This document shows, in pieces, positions 22,782 through 52,519 of a stretch of 61,605 nt of DNA. The notes under the pieces were generated by a model, which was given only the letters and a program-made list of their open reading frames with translations, was not told the origin of the DNA and made no database searches. Every line of letters starts with the position of its first letter. The stretch's first letter is position 1. The DNA lies in assembly GCF_002007215.1 (NCBI RefSeq), contig NZ_MUHX01000014.1:1-61605 (forward strand). Direction: 5' to 3'. The stretch is from Pyramidobacter sp. C12-8. GTDB lineage: Bacteria; Synergistota; Synergistia; Synergistales; Dethiosulfovibrionaceae. A program made the translations under genes and the position numbers.

Positions 22782-22932
22782 ATGCTGATTCTTGATAGAA
22801 AACGACAAATGAGTCTTCGAGGGACTCCGCCGCTCAGGAGTATCTCAACCGCTGCGCGGTCTGCGCAGATCACTTTGTGAATCTGCCGCGAGGCGCTCCT
22901 GCTATTCAGCGTTTCAATCAAGAAATAATAGT
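22782..22932. repeat. Palindromic intergenic repeat, copy C
   Basis: About 150 bp lying between two convergent genes. The left end, GATTCTTGATAGAAAACG, and the right end, complement of CACTATTATTTCTTGATTGA, form imperfect terminal inverted repeats. The inner part matches the reverse complement of the copy at 51859-52018 over about 50 bp, including an exact 21-bp block at 22848-22868 (= 51921-51941) and CTTTGTGAATCT. It has no coding capacity. Confidence 0.75.
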
Positions 22933-27790: not shown

Positions 27791-28198
27791 GGACAGGTCT
27801 CCCGTTCTGTGGAATTTTTAAAAGTGAATCCTCTGTGCGGATCTTTTACGAAACGGCAAAATCATTCTACCTCGTCCCGGTAAAAAATGCCACTAGAAAT
27901 AGTATTGACTTAAACCCAAAGAACACTAAATACACAAAAAACGAAAGAATCCCGGTCCCTGTCCGAAAGAGACGGGAACCGGGAACTTCTCCATTTTCAT
28001 TTGCGCACAGAACGTGCCTTTTCTGTTTTTATCATCCGGCGCATGGAGGAGCAACGCTGAGTATTCTACCACGGAAAAGATTTTTGCGCTTCCGCCGGCG
28101 GGCAGAAATGTTCGGCATGTCCCCAAGGAGGCGTGCCGGGGAAATTACGCGAACGCCGTTTCGGCGCCATTTCTGAAGTGCCCTTCGCTGCGAGGCGT
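27791..28198. other. 408-bp intergenic region with one terminator
   Basis: Holds a minus-strand intrinsic terminator (stem 27951-27963 with 27971-27983, CCCGGT-CCCTGTC and complement with a one-base bulge, then T-rich sequence from 27941 down) that should end transcripts from the DUF255 gene. The rest is AT-richer upstream sequence of nrdJ. Short ORFs here (for example 27926-28126 minus) have no ribosome-binding site or homology and are not called. No confident nrdJ promoter or riboswitch is seen. Confidence 0.6.
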
Positions 28199-45051: not shown

Positions 45052-45063
45052 CGTACACGACTC

Positions 45064-45180
45064 ATACTCTTTCTTGATAAAACGCATTATCATAATTTAC
45101 TGGGCGCGGCGAGGGAGTTCCGAGCGACTGAACTCCCTCGCCGCGCCCTTACGTCCGGCCTTTTGATTGAGAAATAGTAT
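45064..45180. repeat. Palindromic intergenic repeat, copy B (short form)
   Basis: 117 bp with terminal inverted repeats (ATACTCTTTCTTGATAAAA at the left; complement of ATACTATTTCTCAATCAAAA at the right). The centre is a perfect 19-bp stem (45101-45119 with 45129-45147) with a 9-nt loop CGAGCGACT. It shares GAGCGACTGAACTCC with the copy at 51859-52018 but lacks that copy's 21-bp core block. It sits between the convergent FKBP operon and the AbrB-like gene, and its last base is the first base of the latter's stop codon (minus strand). Confidence 0.75.
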
Positions 45181-46241
45181 CAGGCAAAGAGCCGCGCGAT
45201 CAGAGGCACGCAGACGACGATGGAGATCATGCGCACGGCGTGGAAGACGCCGACGATCAACGGGTCGGCGCGCAGATCCTCCGCAAAGAACACCACTTGG
45301 CTGAGGCCGCCGGGACAGGTGGCAAGCACGGAGGTCATCGCGTCCCAGCGGGTGAGGCGGTGCATGATCCAGGCGAGCAGGAAGGAAAGGGCCTGAATCA
45401 GCGCCACGGAAAACGCCAGCGGGAAGAAGAGTTCCCTCGCCAGGTGAATCGTGCTCGGCGACAGGCCCACGCTGATGGTCATGCTCAGACAGATCTGAGC
45501 GGCACTGCGCAGCCACGGCGGGAGGGTCATCACCTTCCCCGAGCGAAGATTCATGGCGCCGGCTCCGCACATAGCCCCGATCATGTACGCCGACGGAAAA
45601 TGCGCCGCCTCGAAAAGCAGCGCCAGCGCGCCAGTGACGGCCGCGAAGCGGGCAATCTCGCCGGGCGAAAAGGAGGCTCTCGTTGCCGCGCCCGCCGCCG
45701 GCGCTTTCGGCAGGACGGCGCCGGACGCGCGGCGCGCCAGCCAGGCCGTGGAAAACGGCAGCGTCACGTAAAGCACGATGATTCGCACGGACTGAAAGAA
45801 AGCCACGATGCCCACGTCGGCGCCGGCGGACATGGCGAAGATCGACATTTCCGCGATGCCGCCGGCCGCCGAGGAAGCCAGACAGGTCATCAGCGAAAGT
45901 CTGCCGCCGGCGAAGGCGAACAGCAGCACGCCGGTCGCAACGGAAGCCATGACCATCCAACACGACGCCAGCGAGACGGGAAAAAGCATCTTCCCGACCG
46001 CGTTCGCCATATGGCGGTCGATCCGCTGTCCGAGGATGACGCCGCTCAAGACCTTGGAAACGAAGGACACCGGCGCCTGATAAAAGGGCAGCCGGAGCCC
46101 CGACAGGTTGAGAAGCCCCAGCAGGAACAGCGAACCGAGCATGGCCGCGGCAGGCCAGCCCATCTTTTTTGCGCCGCGGGCCCCCGCGCAGCCGACGGCG
46201 AAAAGCGCGGCGGTCCCTGCCGAGCGAGCGAGAATTTCCAT
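45180..46241 (-). CDS. AbrB-type integral membrane protein
   Basis: 353-aa protein with about nine hydrophobic helices, matching the AbrB duplication family (PF05145), often annotated as ammonia monooxygenase-like or regulator; it is a membrane protein, not the B. subtilis DNA-binding AbrB. The internal duplication is visible: GVILGQRIDRHM ... TCLASSAAGGIAEMSIFA in the first half and ISVGLSPSTIHLAREL ... SVLATCPGGLSQVVFFAED in the second. A role in transport is likely, substrate unknown. GGAGG lies upstream of two adjacent ATGs (46244 and 46241); the second has the better spacing. Confidence 0.85.
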   Translation of the reverse strand: MEILARSAGTAALFAVGCAGARGAKKMGWPAAAMLGSLFLLGLLNLSGLRLPFYQAPVSFVSKVLSGVILGQRIDRHMANAVGKMLFPVSLASCWMVMASVATGVLLFAFAGGRLSLMTCLASSAAGGIAEMSIFAMSAGADVGIVAFFQSVRIIVLYVTLPFSTAWLARRASGAVLPKAPAAGAATRASFSPGEIARFAAVTGALALLFEAAHFPSAYMIGAMCGAGAMNLRSGKVMTLPPWLRSAAQICLSMTISVGLSPSTIHLARELFFPLAFSVALIQALSFLLAWIMHRLTRWDAMTSVLATCPGGLSQVVFFAEDLRADPLIVGVFHAVRMISIVVCVPLIARLFA

Positions 46242-50675: not shown

Positions 50676-50762
50676 GTGCTCAAACGCCATTTCACCGCCC
50701 GCCAACTTTTTTCTTCGCAGGACGACGCCGCGGGCGCCCTGCGGAATGCGCCCCGCCGATGA
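50676..50762 (+). CDS. 28-codon leader ORF upstream of mutY
   Basis: GTG start with AGAGG 8 nt upstream and an extended -10 promoter just before. It encodes a basic 28-residue peptide (start VLKRHFTARQLFSS) and stops at TGA, whose first two bases overlap the ATG of mutY (ATGA). mutY has no recognisable ribosome-binding site of its own, so translation of this ORF probably delivers ribosomes to mutY. The peptide matches nothing known. Confidence 0.5.
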   Translation: MLKRHFTARQLFSSQDDAAGALRNAPRR

Positions 50763-51856
50763 ACGCCGAAAAGTTTCACCTCGAAGCCGCCGAAGCGCTG
50801 ACCGCATGGTATAATTCCCACAAGCGCGACCTGCCCTGGCGCCTCGACCGCGATCCCTACCGCATCCTCGTCTCCGAAGCCATGCTCCAGCAGACTCAGG
50901 TGGAACGGGTGAAAAGCTTTTACGCGCGCTGGATGGAGCGCTTCCCCACGCTGACGTCGCTCGCTTCGGCAAGCGAAGACGACGTCCTGGCCTGTTGGCA
51001 GGGACTCGGCTATTACAGCCGCGCCCGCAGCCTCCGCAAAACCGCGCAGCTCGTCCGCGACGCCGGCCTGACGACGCTGCCCGCCGAACGGGAATTCCTG
51101 CGCTCGCTCCCCGGTCTGGGACCGTACACCGTCGGCGCCGTCTGCTCCATCGCCTTCGACTTGCCGGTCCCGGCCGTCGACGGCAACGTCAGGCGCGTTT
51201 TTTCGAGACTGCTGGATCTGAGCGAAGACCCCGCCAAGGCCAAGGGGACGGCGCTGATCGCCGCCCACGCCGCGGCCATTCTCAAACTCGGTTCGCCGCA
51301 TATTCTGACTCAAGCGTTCATGGAACTGGGCGCGACCGTCTGCACGCCCGGGGCGACTTGCAAATGCGCGCAGTGCCCCGTCGGACGGCTGTGCGCCGCC
51401 AAGGCGGCCGGCACGCAGGCGCAGCGCCCCGTCGGCACGCGCCGGAACGTTGTCGAGCGGCGCCGCGGCGCGGCGCTGCTGATCCTCGTCCCCCATGGCT
51501 GCGCCGTGCGCCGCCGCCCCGCCGGCGGTTTGTGGTCCGGATTTTACGAGATCCCATGGCTCCGCGGCGAGGCGGACGAAAGCGCCGAAAGCTGCCTTTC
51601 CCGGCTGACCGCCGAGCTGCGGCTTACCGCCCCATGTCTCGACCTTGAGCTGGAAGAGACTTTGAAGTTCACGCGCTGGCAGGTGCGCCTTCATCTGTGG
51701 AGCTGCCGCATGCCGCAGCCGCCGGCCGGGTGCGATGCCGTTTCCGCGGACAAACTGACCGGCTTGCCCATGCCGGCCGGGTTGAAGCGCCTTGTTCAGA
51801 AAGCGCTCGGGCAATCCGCCCGGAAGCAGCTCGAACTCTTCCCGCCAGTCCGGTAA
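50759..51856 (+). CDS. mutY: A/G-specific adenine DNA glycosylase MutY
   Basis: Removes adenine mispaired with 8-oxoguanine (365 aa). Active-site Glu in SEAMLQQTQVERV, helix-hairpin-helix LPGLGPYTVGAV, catalytic Asp in VPAVDGNVRRV. The [4Fe-4S] motif is CTPGATCKCAQCPVGRLC (about residues 198-215): spacing from the first Cys to the next canonical one is one residue longer than the usual C-x6-C, or an extra Cys is used. A NUDIX-like 8-oxoG recognition domain forms the C-terminus. It stands alone on the plus strand and a repeat element begins 3 bp after its stop. Confidence 0.94.
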   Translation: MNAEKFHLEAAEALTAWYNSHKRDLPWRLDRDPYRILVSEAMLQQTQVERVKSFYARWMERFPTLTSLASASEDDVLACWQGLGYYSRARSLRKTAQLVRDAGLTTLPAEREFLRSLPGLGPYTVGAVCSIAFDLPVPAVDGNVRRVFSRLLDLSEDPAKAKGTALIAAHAAAILKLGSPHILTQAFMELGATVCTPGATCKCAQCPVGRLCAAKAAGTQAQRPVGTRRNVVERRRGAALLILVPHGCAVRRRPAGGLWSGFYEIPWLRGEADESAESCLSRLTAELRLTAPCLDLELEETLKFTRWQVRLHLWSCRMPQPPAGCDAVSADKLTGLPMPAGLKRLVQKALGQSARKQLELFPPVR

Positions 51857-51858
51857 TA

Positions 51859-52018
51859 ATACTATTTCTCAATTAAAATGCCGAATACAGAGGCGCTGCG
51901 GAGGAGATTCACAAAGCGAGCTGCGCAGACCGCGCAGCGGTCGAAATAGTCCTGAGCGACTGAACTCCTCCGCAGCACCCTGAAAACTATGTTAATACTT
52001 TCTATCAAGAATTAGTAT
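51859..52018. repeat. Palindromic intergenic repeat, copy A (long form)
   Basis: 160 bp bounded by imperfect inverted repeats, ATACTATTTCTCAATTAAAA at the left and the complement of ATACTAATTCTTGATAGAAA at the right. Inside, a GCTGCGGAGGAG / CTCCTCCGCAGC outer stem encloses a 21-bp block (51921-51941) shared exactly, in reverse, with copy C and the stretch GAGCGACTGAACTCC shared with copy B. It starts 3 bp after the mutY stop. No ORF. Confidence 0.8.
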
Positions 52019-52073
52019 AAGATCGACGTTCTGTGTTCAAGCGCATCCATTTCATTCCAAGGAGGAAATTTCC

Positions 52074-52491: not shown

Positions 52492-52519
52492 ATTATACTC
52501 TTCACGCGCTCCGTGTCAA
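52492..52519 (-). promoter_or_regulatory. Promoter of tRNA-Asn
   Basis: On the minus strand TTGACA (52514-52519), 16-bp spacer, TATAAT (52492-52497), a consensus sigma-70 promoter about 20 bp before the tRNA. Confidence 0.85.

Follow-up and report, generated by a model that had tools for sequence, protein, structure and literature searches.

A palindromic MITE family of the genus Pyramidobacter, its likely IS630-family partner and their TNA target duplications

Palindromic repeats in the window and across the genus

The window analysed here, a stretch of 61,605 nucleotides from the draft genome of Pyramidobacter sp. C12-8, carries three palindromic intergenic stretches that a first-pass annotation took for a "MITE or REP-type" family, which some transposase in the genome could move. 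What these repeats are, and what moves them, is the question raised by this locus. All three were found where they had been placed, and they are joined by inverted matches of 83 nt (80%) and 48 nt (77%), the two longest inverted pairs within the window. The best preserved one, copy C (51860–52017, + strand), was read from its sequence and the family alignment as a full-length MITE of 158 bp consisting of a left arm (TACTATTTCTCAATTAAAATGCCGAA), an inner stem with an interior block and a right arm ending in AAGAATTAGTA. The terminal inverted repeats described earlier were thus present, with the true ends lying one base further in than the original borders. Copy C is flanked by TAA on both sides (scored as TAA/TAA), at 51857–51859, directly 3′ of the stop codon of the ORF at 50759–51856, and at 52018–52020. 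Copy B (45065–45179, − strand) is a 115-bp short form with two arms around one near-perfect hairpin, and it lies between two copies of TCA (TGA on the other strand) at 45062–45064 and 45180–45182. Copy A (22783–22930, − strand) is a degenerate 148-bp copy with one decayed end, and its flanks, TAA and GTG, are now unmatched.

An exact 21-bp block was recovered in reverse orientation in copies A and C (22848–22868 on the + strand and 51921–51941 on the − strand), as originally noted. The block GAGCGACTGAACTCC, which had been assigned to copies A and B, in fact links copies B and C (45122–45136 and 51954–51968). The strong self-pairing was also borne out, with every copy folding better than all 200 of its 200 shuffles (z = −5.2, −7.0 and −3.6). 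At 27892–27908, a single end (TAGAAATAGTATTGA) stands alone, its partner missing from the vicinity, and may be a decayed copy.

A search with the 160-bp copy gave at least 42 matches at E ≤ 0.001 in its own 2.67-Mb draft genome (G000), at least 42 in a genome of the same species (G011), and at least 46 and 45 in two congeners (G009 and G010, respectively); these copy counts are lower bounds. Among the matches listed, none fell in two other congeners (82% and 83% complete) or in eight genomes of two sister genera. Within the phylum, 4 of 185 genomes carried matches, all belonging to one genus. No copy was found in phage and plasmid records, and no exact 25-base internal match was found in viral contigs. 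From the G000 loci, 54 distinct copies of approximately 95–160 bp were gathered. All 49 copies with two called neighbouring genes were intergenic (23 between convergent, 20 between tandem and 6 between divergent genes), as determined with gene calls from a home-made codon score and with five of the 54 copies left out at locus edges. The prediction of many intergenic copies across the genome therefore held, and at least 42 repeats are explained that annotation might otherwise take for regulatory palindromes.

The intergenic setting of all 49 scorable copies, 23 of them between convergent genes, could also suggest a structured element that is useful to the host (a terminator, an mRNA stabiliser or an sRNA) and under selection, with mobility being incidental. 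Of the 40 pairs predicted for the inner stem, 8 are maintained through compensatory changes, with six sequences each at two of those. As expected, such changes fit either a palindromic MITE or a selected RNA, and the pairing can be explained by MITE palindromes. The convergent share is only a small excess over the window's own gaps, of which 6 of 17 are convergent. Furthermore, Rfam gave no family at gathering score and one chance-level match below it, many copies are decayed, and three are recent polymorphic insertions. A selected host function is accordingly very unlikely, and the palindromes are better read as parts of a MITE.

The interiors of several copies have been rearranged. L069 and L075 have an interior that runs opposite to the arms, four short copies (copy B at 45065–45179, L033, L076 and L078) carry their loop block in inverted orientation, and L070 has its arms swapped. 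As a guess, these rearrangements might have arisen from recombination or from template switching inside the palindrome.

Element ends, target duplications and recent movement

Both ends could be placed in 48 of the 54 copies, and end scoring left out the six without both. On alignment, the ends of these 48 copies coincided, so that the element can be written as TACTATTTCT...AGAA(A/T)TAGTA, with TNA at each border. The middle base of this TNA was the same on the two sides in 33 of the 48 copies, compared with approximately 13 expected, and none of 100,000 permutations gave a value as high. Other pairs of flank positions were tested and none had a comparable excess; the outer TNA positions are near-fixed and hence uninformative by themselves. 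The middle base was mismatched in the remaining 15 copies, and the whole 3-bp flank was identical in 24 of the 48 (a count from the listing). The unmatched flanks read as decay. The target-site duplications that had been proposed for checking are thus present as TNA, both in these 33 copies and at three empty sites.

These properties separate the two classes that the first-pass annotation left side by side. The elements are short (approximately 95–160 bp, below the coding length of a transposase), have coinciding terminal inverted repeats and a target-site duplication, and share their ends with autonomous insertion sequences (IS) of G011, G009 and G010, all of which are features of MITEs. REP/RAYT-type sequences, spread by a tyrosine transposase, resemble them in being intergenic, palindromic and numerous. 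REPs are solo palindromes, in which inverted ends with a direct duplication of 3 bp and empty sites would be unexpected, and all of these were found here. A REP/BIME reading was dropped on account of these terminal inverted repeats and duplications, and an origin of this kind is extremely improbable. The MITE half of the original designation stands, with a DDE-transposase IS as partner, and the REP half does not.

Mobility, which had been proposed from the repeats alone, was corroborated by three pairs of filled and empty sites between the two genomes of the same species, with one TCA gained in each case. At G011 position 1440741, an extra 148-bp element and a TCA are present where G000 (L004) has TATC-TCA followed by an older copy. 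At position 2614491, TCA copies in G011 enclose a MITE as well as an IS, where G000 (L156) reads GTGTT-TCA-GCACG. At position 1452340, TC-TCA-GAAG in G000 (L246–L251) corresponds to TC-TCA-element-TCA-GAAG in G011. The three new copies share one sequence, which between the ends is also that of the G000 copy L014; therefore, they moved recently. As judged from these genome comparisons, the repeats are a family that appears to be still mobile in one genus.

New elements were also found at the ends of old ones. A MITE had landed next to another MITE at 1440741, and an IS next to a MITE at 2614491; in L164 an IS entered a TCATACTAA site, and in L019 an arm received a MITE. The evidence for a tendency to land at existing element ends is anecdotal.

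Two further repeats were observed. One recent G011 MITE copy lies inside a repeat of approximately 370 bp that adjoins a tRNA and recurs close to contig ends of G000 in at least 14 places (L123, 630–842 and 991–1149; the Rfam match is to the tRNA only). This repeat probably broke the draft assembly at those contig ends. In G009 (contig C87; L162, 1387–1646), a stretch of approximately 254 bp with ends TACTGGTTTTCGATTGAAA and TAATTGAAAACAGTA has TTA on both sides and may represent another MITE family of this type.

An IS630-family element as the likely partner

A terminal-pattern search of G011 gave a repeated variant end, through which a full-length IS with the same ends as the repeats was found. 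G011 contains nine near-identical copies of this IS, which is approximately 1.1 kb long and has the ends TACTATTTCATTATAG and TACTATTTCTCATTTAAA. The same TNA was present on both sides in seven G011 copies, as well as in L164 and L165. Two empty target sites of the IS lie in the window itself. One is a TCA at 52516–52518, where the homologous G011 locus (L114) has the IS between two TCA copies; the other is a TGA at 169–171, in a repeat at the window's left end, which is filled in the homologous G011 copy L116 (TGA/TGA). Positions 1–390 of the window belong to this repeat, which is approximately 2 kb long and occupies two places in G011 (L116 and L117), with the IS inserted at differing points.

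ORF A of the IS carries HTH_33 and ORF B carries DDE_3. The NCBIfam IS630 model NF033545 matched ORF B with 132.5 bits (E = 2.1 × 10^−38; cut-off 100), and ORF A alone scored 56.7 bits, below the cut-off. The DDE transposase is thus that of the IS630 family, and the target duplication is a 3-bp TNA, not TA; the IS is filed under IS630 by its transposase only, as a TNA variant. Copies and fragments of the IS in G009 and G010 have 67%–95% identity to that of G011, and the G010 relative has a 19-base end (TACTATTTCTTAATTAAAA) that recurs in several MITE left arms (e.g., that of L019). Beyond the 9–19 terminal bases, no shared sequence was found between the MITE and the IS; therefore, the MITE is no simple deletion derivative of this IS. 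The G011 copies (L114–L120) show single-base differences in homopolymer runs and most read as frame-broken, which could reflect either genuine decay or errors of long-read sequencing.

The suggestion that some transposase could move the repeats is supported by this IS. In the window's own assembly, no IS copy was found, only a 27-bp match to an IS end, and there was no IS630 profile match. The partner is either missing from the G000 strain or lost in the draft assembly.

TNA duplications are also made by the IS1031 group of the IS5 family, and an IS5/IS1031 origin was the first idea that the TNA target suggested. An IS5-family IS (DUF4096 and DDE_Tnp_1) does occur in the genus, inside one G011 MITE copy (L121, 1303–2348) that is intact in G000 (L013). 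This IS differs in its ends (GGGCTTGTTTAAA...), and TA rather than TNA was duplicated where it entered the MITE. Among the IS found, which are part of those in the genus, only the IS630-family element has TACTATTTC ends. The IS5/IS1031 idea was therefore dropped, and mobilisation of the MITEs by some other transposase, for example of the IS5 family, seems very improbable.

The MITE and the IS have in common their ends, their target, its duplication and recent movement in one genome, and trans-mobilisation is therefore the simplest reading. We consider it highly probable, on the sequence evidence, that the repeats are non-autonomous MITEs (approximately 95–160 bp, with TACTATTTCT terminal inverted repeats and a palindromic interior) most likely moved in trans by the DDE transposase of the 1.1-kb IS630-family element. 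In the mechanism that we infer, this transposase would bind the TACTATTTCT ends of the MITE and cut the MITE out, or copy it. The MITE would then be joined to a TNA site cut with a stagger of three bases, leaving the TNA duplicated; transposition by cut-and-paste is presumed. What were three unexplained palindromes can now be seen as part of a MITE/IS pair that is still mobile and has clean empty sites, in which trans-mobilisation is directly testable.

A TNA-duplicating group and comparison with known systems

The textbook target duplication of IS630 elements is TA. Eighty relatives of the transposase (64%–77% identity) were retrieved from genome contigs, nearly all from Clostridia MAGs and none from the window's own relatives. 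Enough flanking sequence was available for 53 of them, and 35 with TACT-type ends were kept; these ends were sought by a TACT/AGTA pattern, so that only bases outside the pattern count as evidence. TNA stood on the left in all 35 and on the right in 34, the middle base matched in 28 of 35, and the 3-bp flanks were identical in 27 of 35 (0 of 100,000 permutations). As a control, a blind inverted-end search of other IS630-family loci of the phylum was made. The clearest five elements (L257, L268/L276, L271, L278 and L281) were bordered by TA; this is a reading and not a count, and many loci gave chance pairs only.

The transposase is split into two ORFs (L114, 1533–2100; L166–L245). In the junction comparison, which covered 71 of the 80 relatives, the second ORF lay in the −1 frame in 65, with an A run, usually A7 (CCTC-A7-TTAA), at the junction. 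Directly upstream is a 6-bp inverted repeat that was fully paired in 31 of the 71. Position 5 of this repeat showed co-varying pairs (T-A in 18 and C-G in 36 of 71). The junction resembles a slippage or frameshift site stimulated by a hairpin. An IS630-family IS of Roseiflexus is described as using transcriptional slippage stimulated by a stem-loop at a slippery T5C5 (PMC5009743). The arrangement here is similar in having a hairpin directly 5′ of a slippery run in the transposase gene, and differs in its A7 run and −1 frame change.

On balance, these observations favour a widespread IS630-family clade, present in this genus and many gut Clostridia, in which the 2-base TA stagger has changed to a 3-base TNA stagger while the IS630 transposase, TACTA ends and a conserved hairpin-plus-A7 slippage site are kept, and which may drive the still-jumping MITE family in one genus. 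A bacterial IS630 group that duplicates TNA was not found in those parts of the literature outside subscription journals and ISfinder that were consulted (including PMC10969869, PMC8533490 and PMC10214660). If the TNA duplication is biochemically true, TA and TNA elements would form a natural pair with which to ask how the stagger is determined within the IS630-Tc1-mariner group. In the accounts consulted, Fot elements of the pogo superfamily, which are eukaryotic members of the ITm group, duplicate a 3-bp TAA instead of TA (PMC7386202). The present elements are alike in replacing TA with a 3-bp duplication, and unlike Fot they are bacterial and duplicate TNA.

Among bacterial MITEs, the Correia/NEMIS elements of Neisseria are described with short (ca. 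107 bp) and long (ca. 155 bp) forms and terminal inverted repeats of 24 bp (PMC2229807). The family described here shares the short and long forms and the MITE anatomy, as judged from the descriptions, and differs in the length of its terminal repeats. The closest known system is RUP of Streptococcus pneumoniae, described as a palindromic MITE of approximately 100 bp with approximately 110 copies, whose ends resemble those of the resident IS630-Spn1; trans-mobilisation by IS630-Spn1 has been proposed, with insertion at TA and near IS (PMC3049150; PMC2229807). Both systems combine a short palindromic MITE, IS630-family-like ends, inferred trans-mobilisation and insertion near mobile elements. 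On the features compared, they are set apart by target, TA in RUP and TNA here; in addition, empty sites are available in the present system for the MITE as well as for its likely IS partner. Our results thus describe a new MITE family with a likely IS partner, for which the 3-base rather than 2-base duplication is the one real departure from the RUP/IS630-Spn1 kind.
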